From positions 1 through 64,000 of the forward strand of contig CAJXTB010000020.1 in assembly GCA_913061235.1 (NCBI GenBank): DNA of 64,000 bases. Direction: 5' to 3'. Positions within the stretch are counted from its first letter, which is position 1. Every line of letters starts with the position of its first letter. Of the stretch, positions 18,740-59,542 are shown piece after piece. The position numbers and the translations under genes are program-made. This stretch comes from an uncultured Pseudomonadota bacterium. Its GTDB lineage: Bacteria; Myxococcota_A; UBA796; GCA-2862545. The notes beneath the pieces were generated by a model. The model worked only from the letters and a program-made list of their open reading frames with translations. It ran no database searches and was not told where the DNA came from.

Positions 18740-20323
18740 ATGCGCTACACGATTCTGGCGACGATGTGCGGACTACTGGCGGCCTGCGGCGTTGCCCAAG
18801 ACCCGGTTCTGAACGTGGTCTTAGACACCGATTCTGTCGACTTGGGCACGGTTGTTCCCCCAACAATTGCGGTGGTGCTTCCTTCCGCCGTCGTCACCGT
18901 GAGCAATCTGGGCTCCGGTCCGGCCTGTCTGACGTCTGCCGTTCTGAACGGACCCATGGGACGATACGTCGACCTGGTGGATGTTGAGGTTCCCGTGCGA
19001 CTAGAGCCCGGCGCCTCCGCACTCGTCGGCGTGCGCTTGCTGAGCCTCCCTAATATCCTCGACACCGACCTCGGCTTGGCCTTGGACCTCGGCGTTGTAG
19101 GCGTCGCAGCGGACAGTACGGGCTGCGACCGCACAGTCGATGGCCTGAGCGACACCCTGTCGATTCCCGTGTATGTGCTCGGAGATGCCCGCTGCGATGC
19201 AGACGGAGACGGCCAATATGACGTGGCCTGTGGCGGTGTGGACTGCGATGACGCCGATGCTGACGTGTTCCCAGGAGCTGAGGAGCGCTGCAATAACCTC
19301 GACGACAACTGCAACGGCGCGGTGGACGAGCAAGCGGTCGACGCCCAGCCCTTCTTCACCGACCGCGACGGTGACGGCTTTGGAGCGCCTGGCGTAGCCC
19401 TTCAAGACTGCGCGCTTCCCGATGGATTCGCAGAGCGTGCTGGCGACTGCGATGATGGCCGTGCCGATACCTTCCCGAGTGCCGAAGAAGTGTGCGACGG
19501 CTTGGACAACGACTGTGATGGCCGGATTGACGAAGGCACGCGTCTTCCGTTTTGGACAGACGCAGATGGTGACGGCTTTGGCGCACCGAACACCCGTCAG
19601 TGGGCCTGTGGAGCACCTGCGGGCACTACCGACAACCGCGATGACTGCGACGACACCAACAACATGCGATTCCCCGGTGCCGTCGAACTGTGCGACGACA
19701 TTGATGAAAACTGTGATGGCTTGGTAGATGACGTCGACGACGTGTACCTAGACGCCGACAACGACGGCTTCGGTGACGCCACCAGTCCCATTGACGGGTG
19801 TGACGCAGGTCCGTTCACGTCCCCCAACGCGGACGACTGCGATGACACCGACGAGACGGTCAATCCGGGCGCCGAAGAAGTGTGCAACGCGCAGGACGAT
19901 ACCTGCGACGGCGAGATCGATGAGGGTGGCGCTTGTCCCTGTCCAGTTGAGACCTTCGAAGGCCGTGCATTCGCCTTCTGTACAGAGGTCGGTCTGCCCT
20001 TCGACGCGACCTGGAACATCGCAAACCAAGCGTGTGGTGCGGCTGGGTACAGCTTGGCGAGCATTCACAGCGAAGCCGAAGATGACTTCGTCACTGAGAC
20101 CGCCGCCAGCTACAGCTCGGGCACGTGGTGGATTGGCCTGAACGACCGTCGAAGCGAAGGCAACTACCAGTGGAGTGACGGTTCGCCGTTCGACTACGAA
20201 GGCTGGGATACCGGCGAACCTAACAACGCCGGCAACGAAGATTGCGGCGAGCTTCGGACCACCGGCGGCTGGAATGACGTGAGCTGCTTTGCGGGACGCC
20301 CATTCATCTGCGCCACACCGTAG
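18740..20323 (+). CDS. Lipoprotein with MopE-type metal-binding repeats and a C-type lectin domain
   Basis: A 527-aa lipoprotein (MRYTILATMCGLLAAC, Cys16; GGGGGAG upstream of the ATG). The order is: an Ig-like domain of choice-of-anchor D/ASPM-SPD2 type (about 25-140), then four MopE-like metal-binding motifs (PF11617 type; ERCNNLDDNCNGAVDE, EVCDGLDNDCDGRIDEG and two more) interleaved with DxDGDGFG calcium-loop-like stretches, then a C-type lectin domain (about 400-527). The lectin has the mannose-type EPN motif (GEPNNAGNEDC) and a WND motif (GGWNDVSC), both normally Ca2+ and sugar ligands. It is likely anchored at the outer membrane and may bind glycans, but the ligand is unknown. Confidence 0.88.
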   Translation: MRYTILATMCGLLAACGVAQDPVLNVVLDTDSVDLGTVVPPTIAVVLPSAVVTVSNLGSGPACLTSAVLNGPMGRYVDLVDVEVPVRLEPGASALVGVRLLSLPNILDTDLGLALDLGVVGVAADSTGCDRTVDGLSDTLSIPVYVLGDARCDADGDGQYDVACGGVDCDDADADVFPGAEERCNNLDDNCNGAVDEQAVDAQPFFTDRDGDGFGAPGVALQDCALPDGFAERAGDCDDGRADTFPSAEEVCDGLDNDCDGRIDEGTRLPFWTDADGDGFGAPNTRQWACGAPAGTTDNRDDCDDTNNMRFPGAVELCDDIDENCDGLVDDVDDVYLDADNDGFGDATSPIDGCDAGPFTSPNADDCDDTDETVNPGAEEVCNAQDDTCDGEIDEGGACPCPVETFEGRAFAFCTEVGLPFDATWNIANQACGAAGYSLASIHSEAEDDFVTETAASYSSGTWWIGLNDRRSEGNYQWSDGSPFDYEGWDTGEPNNAGNEDCGELRTTGGWNDVSCFAGRPFICATP

Positions 20324-33686: not shown

Positions 33687-35753
33687 CTACTGCTCGGACA
33701 GGGACGCAATGCGCTCGGCTTGCCACAGCATGTAGATGTCATCCGGAGCCAGACGAGCAGCCTTGACGGCCGCTTCTGCCGCCTGGGCGTACTCGCGTCG
33801 AGCCAAGTGCACCATGGCCTTGGTGTCTAGGTAGTCGCTGCGAGGGCCACTGGCTTCGAGTGCGTCGTCTACGCGCTGTAGGGCGCTGTCGGGGCTCACG
33901 TGTGCCAACGACCAATACCAAGCCATGCAGTTGCCCAAGGCACTGGTCTCGGTCTGTGGGGTGCAGTCACGCGCGATGCCTTGGTCCATGAGGCGCGCTG
34001 CATCGTCGTGGTTGCCCAGGGCCATGTGGGTGGCGACCAGAAAGTCGAAGGGCTGCTGCTGTGGGTGCAGGCGGCTCATCGCGTGGTCAATGTCTTGGCG
34101 CAGCGTTGGGGCTAGGACGTCGTCGGGACCGTCAAGCAGCAGCGTGTAGAACCATACAAACAGGCCGTCCGTCGGGTACAGTTCAATCATTCGACGCAGG
34201 TGAGCCATGGCGCCAATGCGGTCTCCGACGGCCATGCGAATCCGTGCTCGACGCACCAAGTGGGCGTCGGGGTTGCTCGCGAGTTTGGCCGCTGCGAGCA
34301 AGGCAGCATCGGCTTCTTCGTACCGGCCCACACCCACCCAGGCGTCCGCCAGGGCGATCTGTGCGCTGCCGTCGTCTGGGCGGGCGGTCACAGCGGACTG
34401 GGCCAGGGCCAGGGCGCCGTCGGCGAACCCGTCGAGCAACAGGCCATTAACGGTACTGACAATCTGGTCGTGTTCGATGAGCTCTGCTGGAGACAGGGGA
34501 GCGAGCGCCTGACTCGCACCGGTGAGGTTGCCGTTTGCGCGCCGGATGGCCGCGAGTAGAACGCGTGCCTCGCCTTCGGTCGTGGACATGGCGGCTTGGT
34601 CGTCGAGAAAGGCGACCAGCAGTGCTTCGGCGGCGTCACGCTCACCGAGTGCCGCGTGGAGCTCTGCCCGGTACACAGCGCGCTCGGGAGCGTCTGCGCC
34701 AAACCGGTCAATGTCCATACGAAGGGCGACCGAGTGGCCGTCGAGCAAGCGCGCATGACGGCGAGGGGACTTGCGTAGGGCGAAGAGGCCGTCTGAATAG
34801 TCGAAGATAGCCCGGTAGTCTGCGAGCAGTTCGTGACCAGCAAGGCCCTTAATCGTGGAGGGGCCGTTGTAGGTATTGGGCTCGAAACCAAGCCAGGCGG
34901 CGTCAAAGTCAACGTCAACTTGGCGGCCACCAATGCCCACGGACCGTAGCGGAATTCGCCGCGTCTGCTGTAGATATTGAGTGGGCGGCAAGACCTCAGA
35001 TGCGCCAATGCCGTAGACCGGCTCAATGCCCTGAGTCGCGGCCCGGGCAAAGGCACGACCAGTGTCTCGAATGAGCCACAGCTCGCCGGCACCCGTGTCC
35101 ACCTGAACAAAGACGTTGGATGTGATGCTCGGGTCGCTGTCGCTGACAATGTCGATGGGTGCCAGAACGTGGTTGCCATCAAAGAACATGGGCGTGCTCG
35201 TGCGCGGCATTCGGAAGGTTCCTGGCCGATGTAGCGCCAAGTGGTCGGCGGGGTAGTCGATGTCCAACACGAAGCGCGACCACACGTTGTTGCCCAGAAT
35301 ACCGTCGAGCACCATGGCTCCGGCGCGTTCGCCCACCCCTGGAACCCCAACGGCGAACTCCACGTCTTTCACCACAGCCTCGCCCAATCGAATCTCGGGC
35401 AGTGTTGTGGACGAGAACGGTGAGCGGCCGCTCAGCCCCTCCACAAATCCGCCAGTGTCTCGGACAACCACGCCGAGACGGTCGGCGGTCGTGGTGCTGA
35501 GCACCGAGATGCTTGCGCCGGTGTCGATCTGAAACAGCCCAGGCTCGCCGTCTGGAAGGGTGGCGTACACATAGATTCGAGACGCCCCCATCCCCGGTCG
35601 GATCAGGTCGAGATCGACAGTGTCTGGGCCCACAAACGTGGCGATGGGTGCAGCAAGCGGTGTGAATGGCGGTGTTGTCTTGGCACAACCTGCTGTCACC
35701 AGCGCGAGCGTCAGGAGCAGTGAGTGCGGGTTTGGGGCAGACAGGCGCGGCAA
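33687..35753 (-). CDS. Lipoprotein with two aspartic-protease (DTG) domains and TPR repeats
   Basis: About 688 aa. I use a TTG start at 35753, six nt after GGAG, giving a lipoprotein signal ending LVTAGC (Cys23); a longer form from 35816 is possible. Two retropepsin-like modules follow. The first has FQIDTGASISVLS (Asp about 77) and DGILGNNVW; the second has VQVDTGAGELWLI (Asp about 219) and IKGLAGHELLADY. Both have the Asp-Thr-Gly active-site triad and a later Gly-rich ILG/LAG turn. The remaining 350 residues are helical with TPR pairs (DAWVGVGRYEEADAALLAAAKLA). A tandem DTG arrangement resembles a pepsin-like bilobal enzyme built from one chain. It is divergent from the MopE/Gly-rich gene. 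Confidence 0.8.
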   Translation of the reverse strand: MPRLSAPNPHSLLLTLALVTAGCAKTTPPFTPLAAPIATFVGPDTVDLDLIRPGMGASRIYVYATLPDGEPGLFQIDTGASISVLSTTTADRLGVVVRDTGGFVEGLSGRSPFSSTTLPEIRLGEAVVKDVEFAVGVPGVGERAGAMVLDGILGNNVWSRFVLDIDYPADHLALHRPGTFRMPRTSTPMFFDGNHVLAPIDIVSDSDPSITSNVFVQVDTGAGELWLIRDTGRAFARAATQGIEPVYGIGASEVLPPTQYLQQTRRIPLRSVGIGGRQVDVDFDAAWLGFEPNTYNGPSTIKGLAGHELLADYRAIFDYSDGLFALRKSPRRHARLLDGHSVALRMDIDRFGADAPERAVYRAELHAALGERDAAEALLVAFLDDQAAMSTTEGEARVLLAAIRRANGNLTGASQALAPLSPAELIEHDQIVSTVNGLLLDGFADGALALAQSAVTARPDDGSAQIALADAWVGVGRYEEADAALLAAAKLASNPDAHLVRRARIRMAVGDRIGAMAHLRRMIELYPTDGLFVWFYTLLLDGPDDVLAPTLRQDIDHAMSRLHPQQQPFDFLVATHMALGNHDDAARLMDQGIARDCTPQTETSALGNCMAWYWSLAHVSPDSALQRVDDALEASGPRSDYLDTKAMVHLARREYAQAAEAAVKAARLAPDDIYMLWQAERIASLSEQ

Positions 35754-35861
35754 GCGGAGCTCCGGGACGAGGCCATCGAATGTAACGGAAACGCAAGGGG
35801 TGCGCGTCTTGCGCAATCAGAGGGTAGGTTGATGGCCTCTGGGTGCGTTGGGAGTGGACAT

Positions 35862-38800
35862 ATGTCACGTCGTTTGCTGTGGGGCTTGGCTTCGGCCTGC
35901 CTGTTCGCTTGTTTTCCGTCCACCTCCACGGTGGATTTGGTGGTTGACCCGGCGCAATCTGACCTGGGTGAGATCAGTGCCTCTCGCGCAGATGAGATTG
36001 AGCCGCTGGTCGTCACCCTCGCGAATGTCGGCACCGGTCCCGCTACGCTCACCGAGTTGACTCTCGACAGTGAGTTTGAGGAGTGGTTTGAGCTGTCCGG
36101 CGTCGACCTTCCGCTGACACTCGCTGCCGGAGATGTGGTCGACGTCACCCTCACCGTCGCAGAACTCCCTGTAGATTCGTCGTTTGACGGAACCTACTTC
36201 ATGGGCATTCAAGCGGTCACGGAAGGTGAAGCGGCCGCTGGCTGTGGCGGCGGCTTACCGGTTCTAGACGTCGAAGACATCACCATTACTTTTACATTGT
36301 CCCAGCGCTGCGAAGCCGACGAAGACGGTGATGGCGTGGGGCCTTGTGACGGCGACTGCGACGACCTCGACCCCACCGTCTTCGAAGGCGCGGAAGAGCT
36401 GTGCGATGGCGTCGACAACGACTGCGACGGTGAACTGTCAGAAGACGAAGTGGACGGCGACGGTGACGGATTTGCCGCATGCGACGGCGACTGTGACGAC
36501 AGCTCTGGCGACATCTTCCCAGATGCCCCTGAGCTGTGTGACACGCTGGACAACGACTGCGACGGCGATGTGGATGAAGGCGTCAACGAAGACGGCGACA
36601 ACGACGGCGTCAGCGCGTGCGAAGGCGACTGCGACAACGAAAATGCAGACGTCTTCCCTGGTGCTCCCGAGCTGTGCGACACCCTCGACAACGACTGTGA
36701 CGGCGAAGTCCTAGACAACGAGCTGGACCTAGACGGTGACGGCATTGCCGAGTGTGCAGGGGACTGTGACGACCTCGAAGACACCGTGTTCCCAGAAGCG
36801 CCCGAGCTGTGCGATGGCCTCGACAATGACTGCAACGGCGTAGTTGATGACAGCTCAGATGCAGATGGCGACGGCGTCGACAGCTGCTTGGACTGTGACG
36901 ACACCGACCCACTGGTGTTCCCAGGTGCGGACGAACGCTGCAACGCTGTAGATGACAACTGCGACGGAATCGTTGGCGCTAACGAGACTGACGCCGACGG
37001 CGATGCGTTCCTTGCCTGTGCCGAGTGTGATGACACCAACCCGGCCATCTTCCCCGGCGCTCCCGAAGCCTGCAATGGCCAAGATGACGACTGCGACGGC
37101 ATTATCCCCGTCGAAGAACTCACAGACGCGGACTCCGACCAGTTCGTTCAGTGCCTCGACTGTGTGGACACGGACCCGACCATCTTCCCGGGTGCAGATG
37201 AGGTGTGCAACGGCATTGATGATGATTGTGATGGCCTGATTCCAACTCCCGAGACCACAGACGCAGACGGTGACACCTTCGCCGAGTGTGCGGACTGTGA
37301 CGACAACGATGCAACCGTCACCCCTGGAGCCGTCGAGCTGTGCAACGGCATTGACGACGACTGTGACGGCATCATCCCCGACAACGAGCTCGACGACAAC
37401 GACGCCGATGGTGCGGTCGCTTGTGAAGACTGCGACGACAACGACCCCTTCAAGTTCCCGGATGCCGTTGAGCAGTGCAACAACGAAGACGACAACTGCA
37501 ACGGCGAGATTGACGAGAACACCGACCAAGACCAAGACCTTGACGGTGTGGCCGCATGTGATGGCGACTGCGACGACGGCAATCCCAACGTGTTCCCGGG
37601 CAATGAAGAGGTCTGCGACTTTGTCGACCAGGACTGTGATGGGCTGATTGACGAGACCTTCCAGACCCAAGGTCGCTACACCTTTGACGACAACTGCGGC
37701 TCGTGTGCCAACGACTGTGGCGATGGCCGGTTCATCAATGGGTCGGGATTCTGTGACCCCGGACCCGCGCTGCCCCAGTGTGACTACATCTGTGAGCCTG
37801 GCTTCTTTGACGTCAACGCCGACGCCATCGACGGCTGCGAGTGCGAGTTCATCAGCGATGATGACCCGCCCTTCGACGGTATCGATGCGAACTGCGACGG
37901 GGAAGACGGTCAGCCAGAAGGCGCTGTTCACGTCAGCATCCTCACCGGTACGGCCAACGGCTCTGGCAGTATTGATGACCCCGTCACCAGCATTCAGGTC
38001 GGTATCGACATTGCGGCGGGTCGTGGAAGCGACTTTGTGATTGTGGCGACCGGTGACTACGCCGAGTCGGTTGACCTCGCGAACGCGGTCACCGTGTTTG
38101 GCGGCTACGACCTGAACTTTGATGTGCGCGATGCTGTTGCCCTGCGCACAACCATCCAAGGTGTCGCCAGTGAGCCTGCGGTCGTCGCACAGAACATCGT
38201 GCAGCCCACCGTGTTCGACGGCTTCGTCATTGATGCCTCTGTCGCAAGTGCGCCGGGTAGCGCATCCTTTGGCCTGTGGATTGAAGATTCGCCGGGCCTG
38301 ACGGTGTCGAACAACCAGATCGCTGCGGATGTCGGTCGTGACGGTGACACGGGTACGCGCGGAGTTGCCGGTATTATTGGTGCGGACGGGATTGTCGGCT
38401 CGCTGGGTCGTTTGACTACCTGCAATGCTCTGCCCTTCGGCGGCGCTGGCGGCGTCACATCCTGCGGCGGCGTAGATGTCCGCGGTGGTGACGGTGGCGG
38501 CGCTCGCTGTCCGTCTGTTGGCAATCTCCAGCCAGACGGCCTCTCCGGTCTGCCGATTGGTGGCACCGGTGGCGCTGGTTCCTGTGATGCGGACATTGGC
38601 CTGGACTCTGACGGTAGCTGCGAGTGCACGATTGACCCGTCCTGCTGGAACGACGGCACCGACGGTACCCGAGGCAACAATGGCGGCGAAGGAATCGGCG
38701 CGTTTGGGGCGTCCAGCGCACTCTTCAACCGACTGGGTGAGGGGGGCTACATCCCCGGAACCGGCAGCACAGGTATCGGTGGTGGACTCGGCAATGGCGG

Positions 38801-39353
38801 CGGCGGCGGCGGCACGGGTAGTGGCGCTTCGGTCAGTGGTGCCTGCGGCGGAGATGAACACCTCGGCGGCACGGGCGGCGGCGGTGGCGCCGGTGGCTGT
38901 GGCGGCGGTGGTGGTATCGGCGGCGTCGGTGGCGGTGCCTCGATTGGCCTGATCGTCTTTGGCGAAGCGGGCTGGCCCACACTCTCCAACAACCTCATTG
39001 AGTCCTCGGACGCCGGCTCCGGTGGTCCTGGCGGTGCGGGTGGCCTCGGCGGCTTCGGCGGCTTCGGCGGCGAAGGCGGCGAGAATGACCGCAACACCGC
39101 ATGGTGTGGCGAAGGCGGCGGTGACGGCGGCAATGGTGGAAGCGGTGGTACTGGCGGCGGCGGCGGCGGTGGCGCCGGTGGTGCGTCATTCGCGGTCTAC
39201 GCGGTTGGCCCGGCACCAGCGGACCTCGCTGCGGGCAACATTCTACGCAGCGGAAGCGGCGGAGCGGGCGCCCCCGGCGGTGTCGGCGGTGTGACACCTT
39301 CGTCGGCGGGTCAGTCTGGCTCGGACGGCGGCGCAGGCGGCTCAAACTTCTAA
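35862..39353 (+). CDS. Giant lipoprotein: MopE-type repeats, beta-helix and Gly-rich domains
   Basis: A 1163-aa protein: MSRRLLWGLASACLFAC, lipidation at Cys13 or Cys17; GGAG 7 nt upstream. An Ig-like ASPM/SPD2 domain (about 20-145) shared with the 18740 protein is followed by ten MopE-like motifs, of types ELCDTLDNDCDGDVDEG and EVCNGIDDDCDGLIPTPE, in about 310 residues. After a Cys-rich bridge the protein becomes a right-handed beta-helix-like region (GAVHVSILTGTANGSGS, ADFVIVATGDYAE type turns, VFGGYDLNF). The last 340 residues are Gly-rich (GGTGGGGGAGGC-type), looking like loops in a glycine-rich beta-helix. Probable surface structural or adhesive protein binding Ca2+ or other metals. Confidence 0.88.
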   Translation: MSRRLLWGLASACLFACFPSTSTVDLVVDPAQSDLGEISASRADEIEPLVVTLANVGTGPATLTELTLDSEFEEWFELSGVDLPLTLAAGDVVDVTLTVAELPVDSSFDGTYFMGIQAVTEGEAAAGCGGGLPVLDVEDITITFTLSQRCEADEDGDGVGPCDGDCDDLDPTVFEGAEELCDGVDNDCDGELSEDEVDGDGDGFAACDGDCDDSSGDIFPDAPELCDTLDNDCDGDVDEGVNEDGDNDGVSACEGDCDNENADVFPGAPELCDTLDNDCDGEVLDNELDLDGDGIAECAGDCDDLEDTVFPEAPELCDGLDNDCNGVVDDSSDADGDGVDSCLDCDDTDPLVFPGADERCNAVDDNCDGIVGANETDADGDAFLACAECDDTNPAIFPGAPEACNGQDDDCDGIIPVEELTDADSDQFVQCLDCVDTDPTIFPGADEVCNGIDDDCDGLIPTPETTDADGDTFAECADCDDNDATVTPGAVELCNGIDDDCDGIIPDNELDDNDADGAVACEDCDDNDPFKFPDAVEQCNNEDDNCNGEIDENTDQDQDLDGVAACDGDCDDGNPNVFPGNEEVCDFVDQDCDGLIDETFQTQGRYTFDDNCGSCANDCGDGRFINGSGFCDPGPALPQCDYICEPGFFDVNADAIDGCECEFISDDDPPFDGIDANCDGEDGQPEGAVHVSILTGTANGSGSIDDPVTSIQVGIDIAAGRGSDFVIVATGDYAESVDLANAVTVFGGYDLNFDVRDAVALRTTIQGVASEPAVVAQNIVQPTVFDGFVIDASVASAPGSASFGLWIEDSPGLTVSNNQIAADVGRDGDTGTRGVAGIIGADGIVGSLGRLTTCNALPFGGAGGVTSCGGVDVRGGDGGGARCPSVGNLQPDGLSGLPIGGTGGAGSCDADIGLDSDGSCECTIDPSCWNDGTDGTRGNNGGEGIGAFGASSALFNRLGEGGYIPGTGSTGIGGGLGNGGGGGGTGSGASVSGACGGDEHLGGTGGGGGAGGCGGGGGIGGVGGGASIGLIVFGEAGWPTLSNNLIESSDAGSGGPGGAGGLGGFGGFGGEGGENDRNTAWCGEGGGDGGNGGSGGTGGGGGGGAGGASFAVYAVGPAPADLAAGNILRSGSGGAGAPGGVGGVTPSSAGQSGSDGGAGGSNF
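38470..39345 (+). repeat. Low-complexity GGC-rich coding region
   Basis: Dense runs of GGC/GGT codons encode the Gly-rich C-terminus of the 35862 protein. Both strands stay open over long distances here because of the biased codon use; the antisense frames are not real genes. The region is prone to slippage and to short-read misassembly. Confidence 0.8.
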
Positions 39354-51311: not shown

Positions 51312-53624
51312 TTACAGCGCAGCTTCAATCTGTGCGCGTAGGTCTTCTACCCACGCGTCGCTGAAGCCGGCATGCTGCATGAGCACCGTGCCGTCGCGGT
51401 CTACGAGAATGCTGGTGGGCATTGCCATCACGTCGAACTGACCCATGATGGTGCTCTCGGGGTCGTAGATGACCGGGTAGTTGGGCTGAACTGAGCGCAG
51501 CAATCGTTGAGCGCGTGCGGACTGGCGGTCGACGTTGATGGCCAGAACGGTGAAGCCGCGGTCTGCGTAGTCGTCTTGAACAACCTTGAGGGCTGGCATC
51601 TCACGCTGACAGGGGGTGCACCAGCTCGCCCAGAAGTTGATCAGGGTGACCTGGCCGTCGATGTCGGCATTGGTGAAGAGGCTGCCGTCCGCATTGGCTC
51701 CACTGAAGGCGGGCAGAGGGGAGCCGACATCCGTGCCGACAACAGTGGGCTGGGCATCCGCAACGCCGCTGACCAGAATGTCCGACGCGACGGGCTGGTC
51801 GGAGCAACAACGGAAACCAGTGGCTCGATTGCTGTAGCCAGCTCCGAAGTTGTCATACGCCGCACCACAGTTGGCTTTGTCGCCGTAGAACCAGGCGCCG
51901 CCGGCAAGCAGTGCTTGATCGGGCGAACTGCCGACCCACTCCTGAAGGTTGCCGGCTTGGTCATACACGCCGCTGGGTGTGCGGCAGCCGGGCAAGGAGC
52001 CGGCCTGTCGTGGGCCGCCAGAATTCTGATTGCCGGAATCCCAGCACAGTCCCTCTTGGTGGTAGCGACCATAGGGGTACAAGCGGCCTTCTACGAAGTC
52101 CTTGAACACCGAGCCATCGCCGTCATCGTCTGTGGGGTCTTCTCCCTGACAGGCGGCGAGCCACTCGGCCTGCGAGCACATGCGCTTTCCAGCCGCCCGA
52201 CATGCCGAGTCGGCGTCGCTCCAGCTTACCGCTGACGGTGTTGCGCCAACGGTCGAGCGAGCGGCGCCCTGGGCGTCTACGGAGGCCTCTACAGCATCAA
52301 TGTAGAAGGTCTCTCCTTCGAGCTGCTGGACTGACATTGCAATGGGGCCAGCGGGTGGAGGCGCATCGGTCACTACGGTTCGCTGAACGTCGACCTGTCC
52401 GCTCGCATCGACCTCTGCTTCTCCGAGGGCTACGCGGATGGCGGCGTCCAAGATGGCTTCGCTGACAGCACCTCGCATCTCACGACCGGCAATGTAGATG
52501 CGTGGGGTGCCGCTGATCTCCAGTGCCTTGGCCGACTCAATGTCCGCGAGCAGCTCACGTCGCTTGTCGCCGTTGGTGGTACACGCGCGCCACCGCTCCA
52601 CATCGAGACCGAGACGTTCTGCGTAGAAGGCGAGGTCTTCGTCTTCCAGACGCTGTTGATTGGCGAACAACAGGTCATGGTATTCCCAGAACTGGCCCTG
52701 GTCCTCGGCGCAGTGAGCTGCCATGGCCGCTTCACAGGCGTGTTGGTGGTGAGTGCGACTCACGCCGTCATTGCACTGTAGGTCCATGGGGAAGTGGCGG
52801 AATGCGAAGGCTACGCGGTCCTTGTAGCGTTCCTTGATCGGAGCCAGATTGAACGAGAGCTGGCGGCAGTAGCCACACTCAAAGTCGGCGTACTCAATGA
52901 CCTGTACTTGTGCGTCTCGGGGGCCGTAGACAGGGTTGTGTGCGGCCAAGGAGACGGCTTTGATGTCTCCGGTCAAGCGCGCCCGTCCAGAGGCTTCTAG
53001 GGCCGTTCCGACCTCTTGGTCTCCAGTAGCGGGGGGCGGGTCGGTGAGCTGTGCAATGACCGCTTCATCGAGGGACGCTGCCCACCACAGGCTGCCGCCA
53101 ATAGCCATTGCCGCGACAGACAGCCCAATGCCGAGAGCTGCACCGAGGTCTTCCGCGGACGGGAGGGAGGGCATCCGATGGCGTGGCACAACAGCGAGAA
53201 CCAGTGACACGGTGTGCAGCGCATACATGGTCATGCAAAACTTGCACACGAATCCAAGGTCCACCAGGCTGATGTAGCCAAGAAACACGCTGACCAGGAC
53301 GTTCCACACCGCCAGCACAACCAAGGCGCCTTGTGCCTTCTCGCCTCGGGGGTTGGGGCGCAGAGCCCGCCACACCAAGTACGCCATGACCGCGTACATA
53401 GGAAGCGCGTAGGCACTGATTGGGGCGCCAAGGAGGGACGACCAGTCGCTTGTATTGACGGCGTCGCAGTTGGCCTTTCCGTCAGCAGCACACAGGCTCT
53501 CAAAGCCAGCAGCGCCGTGAGTGAGACGAACGTGTGCGTAGGCTAGGTACGTGGCTGGCACGGATGCTAGTGCGAGAACGAGCCATTGGGCCTTGAGTGC
53601 CCAGCTATTTTTGACGGTATCCAT
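51312..53624 (-). CDS. Four-domain fusion: VKOR - DsbA-like thioredoxin - FGE/sulfatase-modifying-like - TlpA-like thioredoxin
   Basis: 770 aa. (1) Residues 1-190: a VKOR-like membrane domain with about five helices, loop cysteines C45 and C53, and active CxxC at C127/C130 (GFVCKFCMT). (2) Residues 215-400: a DsbA-like domain with C250-G-Y-C253 and cis-Pro at about 374 (SGTPRIYI). (3) Residues 430-610: an FGE/SUMF1-like domain (RMCSQAEWLAACQGE, SGVYDQAGNLQEWVGSS, LAGGAWFYG, GYSNRATGFRCC). (4) Residues 630-770: a TlpA/ResA-like thioredoxin with WCTPC (C669/C672) and cis-Pro at about 736. VKOR and DsbA domains together form disulfide bonds in the periplasm; TlpA-type domains usually reduce. The FGE-like domain probably binds or modifies a partner. 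The start MDTVKNSW fits a membrane protein. Confidence 0.9.
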   Translation of the reverse strand: MDTVKNSWALKAQWLVLALASVPATYLAYAHVRLTHGAAGFESLCAADGKANCDAVNTSDWSSLLGAPISAYALPMYAVMAYLVWRALRPNPRGEKAQGALVVLAVWNVLVSVFLGYISLVDLGFVCKFCMTMYALHTVSLVLAVVPRHRMPSLPSAEDLGAALGIGLSVAAMAIGGSLWWAASLDEAVIAQLTDPPPATGDQEVGTALEASGRARLTGDIKAVSLAAHNPVYGPRDAQVQVIEYADFECGYCRQLSFNLAPIKERYKDRVAFAFRHFPMDLQCNDGVSRTHHQHACEAAMAAHCAEDQGQFWEYHDLLFANQQRLEDEDLAFYAERLGLDVERWRACTTNGDKRRELLADIESAKALEISGTPRIYIAGREMRGAVSEAILDAAIRVALGEAEVDASGQVDVQRTVVTDAPPPAGPIAMSVQQLEGETFYIDAVEASVDAQGAARSTVGATPSAVSWSDADSACRAAGKRMCSQAEWLAACQGEDPTDDDGDGSVFKDFVEGRLYPYGRYHQEGLCWDSGNQNSGGPRQAGSLPGCRTPSGVYDQAGNLQEWVGSSPDQALLAGGAWFYGDKANCGAAYDNFGAGYSNRATGFRCCSDQPVASDILVSGVADAQPTVVGTDVGSPLPAFSGANADGSLFTNADIDGQVTLINFWASWCTPCQREMPALKVVQDDYADRGFTVLAINVDRQSARAQRLLRSVQPNYPVIYDPESTIMGQFDVMAMPTSILVDRDGTVLMQHAGFSDAWVEDLRAQIEAAL

Positions 53625-53711
53625 CGTGCGCTCCGTGATGACATCGGATGGGGGAGCCGCCGAATTATCACGATGACGCCAGAGTGTGTGAATAGGCGAC
53701 GAAAGGGATGG

Positions 53712-53753
53712 CCGCTATCGTTGATAGCGGTCCTTCCGTTGAAGGAGGAACGT
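53712..53753 (+). promoter_or_regulatory. Two tandem hairpins before mutT, the second hiding the Shine-Dalgarno
   Basis: CCGCTATC (53712-53719) pairs perfectly with GATAGCGG (53723-53730) around a GTT loop. Immediately after, TCCTTC (53731-53736) pairs with GAAGGA (53741-53746), loop CGTT. The second stem occupies most of the SD, AAGGAGG at 53742-53748. The TTG start is at 53754. This could restrain translation until opened; RNA thermometer-like control is possible but untested. Confidence 0.55.
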
Positions 53754-57460: not shown

Positions 57461-59542
57461 CTAGCGCAAGAAGGGTCGGATCTGCTTGATGATGAGCCGA
57501 CCGTCTTCGAGCACTTTCCACTCGGTGTCGAGCAACACGGTGCGTCCGTCGGGTACGGGCTCATCGATCGGCCACTGCTGTTCAATACGGTGCAGGGCGA
57601 GGGCGAGGTCCGTCAGCTGCTGGCTTGTGAGCACGATGCCGGAGCCGACAGTACTCTGCCGAATGCGTTGAATGTCTGTCACCTCGCCACTGGTCGAGAC
57701 GGTGACGAAGGTCTTTTCGGGCGCCACGCCGGGCTCGGCACTGACCACGTCCCACTCACCGAACTGGGCGTTGACCAGTGTTCGGTCGTCATCGGCGGTC
57801 GGATTTCCGGTGAAGGCAACGATGTTGGCCTGTTCGTCTTTGCTGCGCGTGTTGACGAGCACGCCCATGGCTACGTTTTCATGACTGATGCCGTACCAGT
57901 CCCGTTCTTCCCAGGCCTCTACGTTCCACGTTGAAGCCCACACCTTGCGCAGTCCGCGCGCGATGGTGCGTTCGTTGTCTTGGTCGGGGTCACACAGGCT
58001 CGGTCCGTCGCTGTCGGTGTCGAGGGTATCGGCAAGGCAGACGCTCGTTGAGTCGTACAGGCCGGCGCCGTTGAATGTGAGTGCGTCTTCGGCATTGCTG
58101 CTGCTGCGAAAGCGAACCATCACCTCATCGCTGTCCCAGACATCCGTGATGGCCGTGGCGAGAATCTCCTCCAGAACAGGGTCGACGGGGGCGTCTCGCA
58201 TGGCGTCGCGTAGGTCGTCTAGGCGGTCGCGTCGTACAGTCGCGTCGGTCAGGAACAGGTCGTCCACATGCCAGGCATCGAGGGTCTCTTGGAACGTGTA
58301 CTCGGCCGCGCCGTCGCCTAGGTCCACCGTCCAAGATGTGGTCTCAACAAACCGGATGTACCAGTAGAAGGGCACAACGAAGCCAGTCAACTGAATGCTC
58401 GGGTCGGTCAGCTGGTACAGCTGCGCAAGATTTGTTCCCTTGGAGCCGAAGGTCGACACGGCACCACGGCGGTCGGTTGCTGAGCGCACTGAGACGTCTA
58501 AGAGCTCGACGGTATCGGCAAAAGCGGCGTTTGGTGACGGCAGGATGATGGGGTCAGGACGTAGCTCGATCCAGAAGATCTCAGCTTCCTCCGGTGTTGC
58601 TGGGCGCACGGTGTAGCCACGTGGGCCGCATGTGAGGGCGACCAGCTGACCTTCCCACTCCGAGAACGCGTCGAGTGGCTCACGAACGTAGCAGTTCGGG
58701 GTTCCGCGTCCGGCGGAGCGCACGTTGAGGTGCGACAGTTCCCCTTGGCGTGTGCCGGTGACTGCGCCTGCGATGGGGCGCTCCACGTCGAACGGGGCTT
58801 CGTCCAAGATTAGCAGGTCTTGGTAGCTGAACGAGGCGTCTTCGGTGGCCTGGGCGAACTGCTGGGCGTCGTACAAGCGCACGGTGCCGATGCCGGTCCC
58901 TTGGGTGTAGGCCTCGTAGGGCAGGCTGTCGTCGAGGGTGTGAATCGGAAAGTCTGTTTCGCCCCAGGAATCTGCGGCGTCACGCTGTAGCCTGGAGTTG
59001 GGCACCCAGAACAGGGGACGAATGCCCATGCGCGAGGCGATGTCGTCGTACAGAGCGTGCACCTGTTCTTCGGTCAGCACGGCGTCGACATCGCTGGGGT
59101 CGTCCCAGATGGTGAACCCAAAGTAGCTGGCATCGCGGTCAACAAACTCGACAAGGTCGCCGCTGAAGTACTCGCGGTCGACGGGATCGAGAACCATGCG
59201 GGAGTATTCGGTGTGGGTCAGCCCGGGAAACGCGTCTGGAAAGGCAGCGGCAAGCATCTCCCAGTGCAGCGTGTACGTGTTCATGTCCAAGAACAGGGTG
59301 TCTTGAATGTACGAGTCAGGATTCGCGGGGGCAAGCCACTTGGTATTGCCGCGCCGATCAATGATGGTACTGGGTCGACTTAGCGAGTCCCAGTCTTCGA
59401 TATCCGCGATGTTGTGAACGCACGCACGGGCACCGACCCGCTCATTCGCGACGTCGCAGGGCAAGTCTTCCAGCGGCGGGACCGGGGGTGTCTTGCACCC
59501 AACGAAGAGCACGGCGAGAGCGATGATGTGTTGGACCGACAC
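57461..59542 (-). CDS. Exported lipoprotein with swivelling-His and ATP-grasp (dikinase-like) domains
   Basis: A 693-aa lipoprotein. GTG start at 59542 with GGAG; MSVQHIIALAVLFVGC gives Cys16. Residues 20-240 are unassigned. A phosphohistidine-type segment at residues 255-290 reads TRQGELSHLNVRSAGRG TPNCYV, with H271 as the candidate phospho-His; it resembles the LSHVSVRARN motif of plant glucan water dikinase. It is followed by an ATP-grasp half: FGSKGTNLAQLYQL (368), VRFRSSSNAEDAL (477), FNGAGLYDS, and WKVLEDGRLIIKQIRPFLR. In PPDK/PEP synthase the ATP-grasp precedes the His domain; here the order is reversed, as in glucan water dikinases. Export is odd because ATP is scarce outside the cytoplasm. 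Function unknown. Confidence 0.82.
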   Translation of the reverse strand: MSVQHIIALAVLFVGCKTPPVPPLEDLPCDVANERVGARACVHNIADIEDWDSLSRPSTIIDRRGNTKWLAPANPDSYIQDTLFLDMNTYTLHWEMLAAAFPDAFPGLTHTEYSRMVLDPVDREYFSGDLVEFVDRDASYFGFTIWDDPSDVDAVLTEEQVHALYDDIASRMGIRPLFWVPNSRLQRDAADSWGETDFPIHTLDDSLPYEAYTQGTGIGTVRLYDAQQFAQATEDASFSYQDLLILDEAPFDVERPIAGAVTGTRQGELSHLNVRSAGRGTPNCYVREPLDAFSEWEGQLVALTCGPRGYTVRPATPEEAEIFWIELRPDPIILPSPNAAFADTVELLDVSVRSATDRRGAVSTFGSKGTNLAQLYQLTDPSIQLTGFVVPFYWYIRFVETTSWTVDLGDGAAEYTFQETLDAWHVDDLFLTDATVRRDRLDDLRDAMRDAPVDPVLEEILATAITDVWDSDEVMVRFRSSSNAEDALTFNGAGLYDSTSVCLADTLDTDSDGPSLCDPDQDNERTIARGLRKVWASTWNVEAWEERDWYGISHENVAMGVLVNTRSKDEQANIVAFTGNPTADDDRTLVNAQFGEWDVVSAEPGVAPEKTFVTVSTSGEVTDIQRIRQSTVGSGIVLTSQQLTDLALALHRIEQQWPIDEPVPDGRTVLLDTEWKVLEDGRLIIKQIRPFLR

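Follow-up and report, generated by a model that had tools for sequence, protein, structure and literature searches.

A fusion gene and the question it raises

Can disulfide formation, thiol reduction and the modification of a partner protein be combined in one polypeptide chain, as the domains encoded at this locus appear to imply, and if not, what does such a chain do? The gene in question lies in a stretch of 64,000 nucleotides, which is called the window below. It is an open reading frame of 770 amino acids on the minus strand, with an ATG start and GGAG a few bases upstream. Pfam recognizes four domains in the predicted protein: VKOR (PF07884, E 3.7e-17), Thioredoxin_4 (PF13462, DsbA, E 5.5e-24), FGE-sulfatase (PF03781, E 1e-9; 38.9 bits against a cut-off of 23.3) and Redoxin/AhpC-TSA (TlpA, E 3e-23). 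All four exceed the curated Pfam cut-offs, and they stand in the order VKOR-DsbA-FGE-TlpA that a sequence-only reading of the locus had proposed; the FGE region, on whose match to PF03781 that reading had staked its case beforehand, is among them. The features are as follows.

51312..53624, minus strand: VKOR-DsbA-FGE-like-TlpA fusion (ORF, Pfam, homologs)
53193..53570, minus strand: VKOR domain, residues 19-144; Cys45/Cys53, Ser59, CxxC Cys127/Cys130 (Pfam, alignment)
52437..52937, minus strand: DsbA/Thioredoxin_4 domain, residues 230-396; CxxC Cys250/Cys253; invariant Cys 284, 297, 305, 348 (Pfam, alignment)
51807..52232, minus strand: FGE-like domain, residues 465-606, core 425-612; eight invariant Cys (Pfam, alignment, fold match)
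51357..51728, minus strand: TlpA/ResA-like thioredoxin, residues 633-756; WCTPC Cys669/Cys672 (Pfam, alignment, tree)
53625..53753, no strand: short intergenic gap separating the fusion gene from a divergent Nudix gene

Hydrophobic segments were found at residues of about 14-32, 96-147 and 157-183, and the strong ones all fall within the first 183 residues. This fits a predicted topology in which the VKOR membrane bundle is followed by extracytoplasmic domains.

The fusion is conserved and is not a misassembly

A search of 94 genomes revealed full-length homologs with 44-48% identity across residues 3-769. We also ran a profile of the DsbA-FGE stretch against 284 genomes of the phylum, and its matches formed two well-separated groups, one with both domains (complete ones at E of about 1e-92 or lower) and one with DsbA only (E 7e-65 and weaker). 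The DsbA-FGE core occurs in 73 proteins from 57 genomes that represent 16 or more families in the phylum, with more than one member in 13 genomes, and the majority of the 73 members are four-domain fusions. Thus, it can be concluded that the fusion is neither a chance event nor a misassembly, as the identical order is present in many genomes and on many contigs. The four-part order had been described as unfamiliar, and we indeed found no account of it, or of a DsbA-FGE fusion, in open-licence papers; it is not, however, unique to this genome but common in the clade. A scan of genome contigs gave a sole match, which was DsbA-like and came from an Acidobacteria MAG. A five-domain variant, VKOR-DsbA-DsbA-FGE-TlpA, was observed at L156:4049-6985 (plus strand).

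The genome of the window encodes, in addition, a two-domain VKOR-DsbA protein (L168, 453 aa) with neither FGE nor TlpA, and such a protein is found in most genomes of the order. General disulfide formation can thus proceed without the four-domain fusion.

The redox sites of VKOR, DsbA and TlpA are intact

In the VKOR domain, the four redox cysteines and the conserved serine in a helical bundle are present with the spacing Cys45-x7-Cys53, Ser59 and Cys127-x2-Cys130, and the Cys columns are kept in 36-38 of 38 alignment rows. We take the loop spacing to be that of human VKORC1 (Cys43, Cys51 and Ser57), with the CxxC presumably corresponding to VKORC1 Cys132/135. The region is similar to solved VKOR and VKOR/thioredoxin proteins. 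The second domain matches the DsbA-like families (PF13462/PF01323), its CxxC being present in 70 of the 73 members and Pro374, the cis-Pro, in all alignment rows. The C-terminal domain combines Redoxin/AhpC-TSA homology with a WCxxC site, and this CxxC was found in all 26 rows of the first alignment. The redox sites of all three parts are intact, and the notion of a disulfide machine in one protein is supported.

All 73 members also share twelve other cysteines, of which the DsbA domain holds four and the FGE-like domain eight. They are kept even in three paralogs of genus g21 (L064, L065 and L066) in which the DsbA CxxC is changed to D..S and the VKOR and TlpA sites are degenerate. Retention of these cysteines in redox-dead proteins suggests that redox chemistry is not the sole role of the FGE/DsbA scaffold.

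TlpA is either fused or encoded by an overlapping upstream gene

Thirteen members consist of VKOR-DsbA-FGE only and end after the FGE-like domain, with a separate TlpA gene located just upstream. Together with two fragments at contig edges they form one well-supported clade. The stop codon of the TlpA gene and the start codon of the fusion gene overlap by 4 nt (ATGA or GTGA) at each of the nine junctions inspected, and most of the separate TlpA proteins begin with a signal-peptide-like stretch. In a TlpA tree the fused domains make up one group with modest support (84/57), placed in the same region as the separate upstream proteins and apart from the CcmG-like proteins. TlpA is therefore interchangeable between a fused domain and an operon partner, which is a Rosetta-stone link between it and the remaining three domains.

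The FGE-like domain keeps the fold but not the catalytic cysteines

The domain is a short form, matching PF03781 only from position 95 to 253 of the 255 in the profile, and the same family was matched by 30 of 30 homologous domains. An AlphaFold2 model of the domain, built from the window sequence and the sequences of related loci only, reached a pLDDT of 71 and a pTM of 0.73. Its comparison with bacterial and human FGE gave Z of about 12-13 over about 163-166 residues (Foldseek/VIA), and the closest solved relative by sequence is SUMF2 (PDB, E 8e-12). Both the Pfam match and the structure match thus indicate FGE homology and an FGE fold.

Active human FGE uses the catalytic Cys336 and Cys341 and is held together by structural disulfides 346-235 and 365-218 (PMC4505483). 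In our alignment to SUMF1, Cys475, Cys492, Cys586 and Cys606 of the fusion align with 218, 235, 346 and 365, respectively. Equivalents of Cys336 and Cys341 were found in none of the 73 members, there being no cysteine between the conserved GG and Cys586, and the copper-binding catalytic pair expected of an FGE is thus absent. With both residues missing in 73 of 73 proteins, formylglycine formation is very unlikely, and we regard the domain as a catalytically dead FGE-fold module. The sequence-only reading had also offered that the chain might modify a partner at a specific cysteine; we rejected this formylglycine chemistry on the same grounds.

The eight invariant cysteines of the domain (475, 483, 492, 527, 547, 586, 606 and 607) fit a set of predicted structural disulfides. 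Among free-standing relatives, L113 and L114 have lost both Cys475 and Cys606, and all four of Cys475, Cys492, Cys586 and Cys606 have been lost jointly in others, L119, L126 and L129 for example. Such joint losses support the putative pairs 475/606 and 492/586, matching human 218-365 and 235-346. Cysteines 483, 527, 547 and 607 probably form two more disulfides, for which 483-607 and 527-547 would be our guess.

Free-standing FGE-like proteins of this kind are encoded on contigs labelled viral in IMG/VR (L090-L136), mostly with the same eight cysteines and without the catalytic pair. The genome of the window itself encodes, at about 99.5 kb of C5 (L087), a Ser/Thr-kinase-like protein with an eight-Cys FGE-like domain at its C-terminus.

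A probable self-contained thiol-disulfide exchange protein

We consider it probable that the fusion sits in the inner membrane as a self-contained unit for thiol-disulfide exchange on the extracytoplasmic side, linked to quinone, with its FGE-fold part serving for docking or as a scaffold. Judging from what is known of the families and from the anatomy of the chain, the VKOR bundle would re-oxidise the tethered DsbA domain, its loop and CxxC cysteines handing the electrons on to quinone, and DsbA would in turn oxidise client cysteines. TlpA may act as a second thioredoxin arm. Most TlpA-family proteins are reductases, so this arm may reduce or correct the disulfides of the same clients, with electrons supplied by DsbD/CcdA; a DsbD-like protein encoded in the genome of the window is a possible reductant. 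Alternatively, the TlpA arm could be oxidised by VKOR. The FGE-fold module probably either docks clients or spaces and orients the two thioredoxin arms, and the clients may be Cys-rich lipoproteins or, in some lineages, c-type cytochromes.

A bolder form of this proposal, which we put forward tentatively and as possible rather than probable, is a single-chain proofreading disulfide isomerase. In it, quinone, VKOR and DsbA would make up the arm that oxidises, and TlpA, supplied by DsbD/CcdA, the arm that reduces; between the two would sit a dead FGE-fold module which docks the clients, perhaps apocytochromes or the Cys-rich surface proteins of the clade.

Candidate clients and neighbouring genes

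Cys-rich surface proteins in the window had been named in the sequence-only reading as possible recipients of disulfides made by the fusion. Such proteins are present: six ORFs at 18.7-39.4 kb contain 4.6-5.4% Cys, most of them with a lipoprotein-like start, and two of the six contain MopE-type repeats. The two repeat proteins lie at 35724-39353 and 18740-20323, and one of them has a C-type lectin domain. That the fusion supplies them with disulfides is possible, but a specific link was not borne out. As at least 150 scored MopE-repeat matches are spread over the genome, the closeness of such proteins to the fusion gene means little, and we discarded it as evidence. Their abundance itself, a very large number of exported Cys-repeat proteins being encoded in the genome, is in keeping with an exchange protein.

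The main rival to a general exchange protein is that the fusion is a thiol chaperone devoted to cytochrome c maturation, in which VKOR-DsbA would oxidise, and a CcmG/ResA-like TlpA would reduce, the thiols of apocytochrome CXXCH motifs. The arguments for it come from gene neighbourhoods. In family f7 (G063, G066, G067 and G068) the fusion gene and a ccm System I cluster point away from each other, and the cluster contains CcmB, CcmE and CcmF by Pfam and an ABC ATPase in the place of ccmA; a TlpA/CcmG-like gene belongs to the cluster at three of the four loci, a ccmC-like Cytochrom_C_asm gene was seen at L035, and an additional TlpA-like gene follows directly downstream of the fusion. In G037, a gene for a multiheme cytochrome (5 CXXCH) is located about 25 bp upstream of the fusion on the same strand. 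Outside the phylum, unfused clusters of the order thioredoxin/DsbA-VKOR-TlpA-CcdA occur on plasmids of Rhodococcus and Streptomyces, with ResB/CcsB genes close by; these clusters speak for the general exchange protein as well. However, among the fusions the ccm linkage was seen in f7 only and the multiheme cytochrome linkage at a single locus. The window gene has no adjoining c-type cytochrome, and in its genome the Cytochrom_C_asm genes map to a different contig (C1:684-687 kb), where a TlpA-like gene adjoins them. Cytochrome c maturation is a credible client process in some lineages, from which its support comes, and as a dedicated function of the fusion it is rather unlikely.

In the window the fusion gene stands alone, between a convergent gene, presumably pyruvate phosphate dikinase-like, on one side and the divergent Nudix (MutT-like) gene on the other; the latter is on the plus strand and runs from about 53754, with an inferred TTG start. 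Further along the window, a predicted exported protein or lipoprotein (57461-59542, minus strand) contains a PPDK_N (PEP-synthase ATP-binding) domain, which is an odd place for it. In family f13 (L037, L040 and L049) an NAGPA phosphodiester glycosidase gene is directly downstream of the fusion and is followed by genes for PEGA and Kelch proteins in a conserved order. A sulfatase-family predicted lipoprotein is encoded immediately downstream of a fusion paralog (L044:4686-6029, minus strand). The C/S-x-P-S/A-R motif is absent from this protein and the arrangement was seen at this one locus only, and we therefore rejected a sulfatase link.

A further alternative is a redox sensor or scaffold, in which the thioredoxin arms, instead of serving client folding, would set the state of an FGE-like domain that binds a partner or a ligand. 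The C-terminal eight-Cys domain of the kinase-like protein in the same genome speaks for this reading, as do the redox-dead paralogs which retain the cysteines of the FGE-like domain and the extra ones of DsbA. However, all three redox motifs are kept in the large majority of members and no regulator is consistently linked to the fusion genes, and we find this explanation improbable. Least credible is a modification machine in which FGE would oxidise a specific partner cysteine to formylglycine with TlpA as the reductant that FGE turnover requires (PMC4505483): the PF03781 match, the fold and the sulfatase-family neighbour of L044 would suit it, but it is opposed by the loss of both catalytic cysteines in every member, by that sulfatase's lack of the motif and by the occurrence of the same eight-Cys domain elsewhere, both in free-standing genes and in a kinase-like protein.

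Comparison with known systems

Outside the cytoplasm, the pathways that oxidise thiols and those that reduce them normally use separate proteins, by which a short-circuit is avoided. A conserved chain with parts of both therefore allows a direct test of how the two activities are insulated from each other or combined. The FGE fold is here reused without its catalytic cysteines, which calls for caution in annotating such proteins as formylglycine-generating enzymes.

Fusions of VKOR with thioredoxin are already known (PMC4555120). Those of the Synechococcus type (PDB 4nv2/4nv5/4nv6; structures 4nv2-4nv6) share with our protein the N-terminal VKOR bundle, the four redox cysteines with the serine, and a thioredoxin fold that follows; here, in contrast, VKOR is joined to DsbA/Thioredoxin_4, which has four invariant cysteines in addition, and FGE-like and TlpA parts come after it. 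The two-domain VKOR-DsbA protein L168 has the first two parts, with extra DsbA cysteines at matching positions by eye, but stops after DsbA and has neither the FGE-like nor the TlpA part. SUMF1 and SUMF2 (pFGE, 1y4j) share the FGE fold and two structural disulfides at matching positions. The FGE-like domain of the fusion is shorter and lacks the Cys336/Cys341 pair; in this lack it resembles SUMF2, which is not known to have the catalytic pair either. The actinobacterial DsbA-VKOR-TlpA-CcdA clusters near ResB/CcsB contain the same three redox parts as neighbouring genes; they are unfused, have no annotated FGE-like domain and lie close to system II cytochrome c genes. Finally, the WCxPC thioredoxin-like domain is shared with the TlpA/ResA/CcmG oxidoreductases (E 9e-26 to the DsbE-type structure 3gl3), but in the fusion it is tethered to its own disulfide generator, while in the sister clade it is a separate gene.
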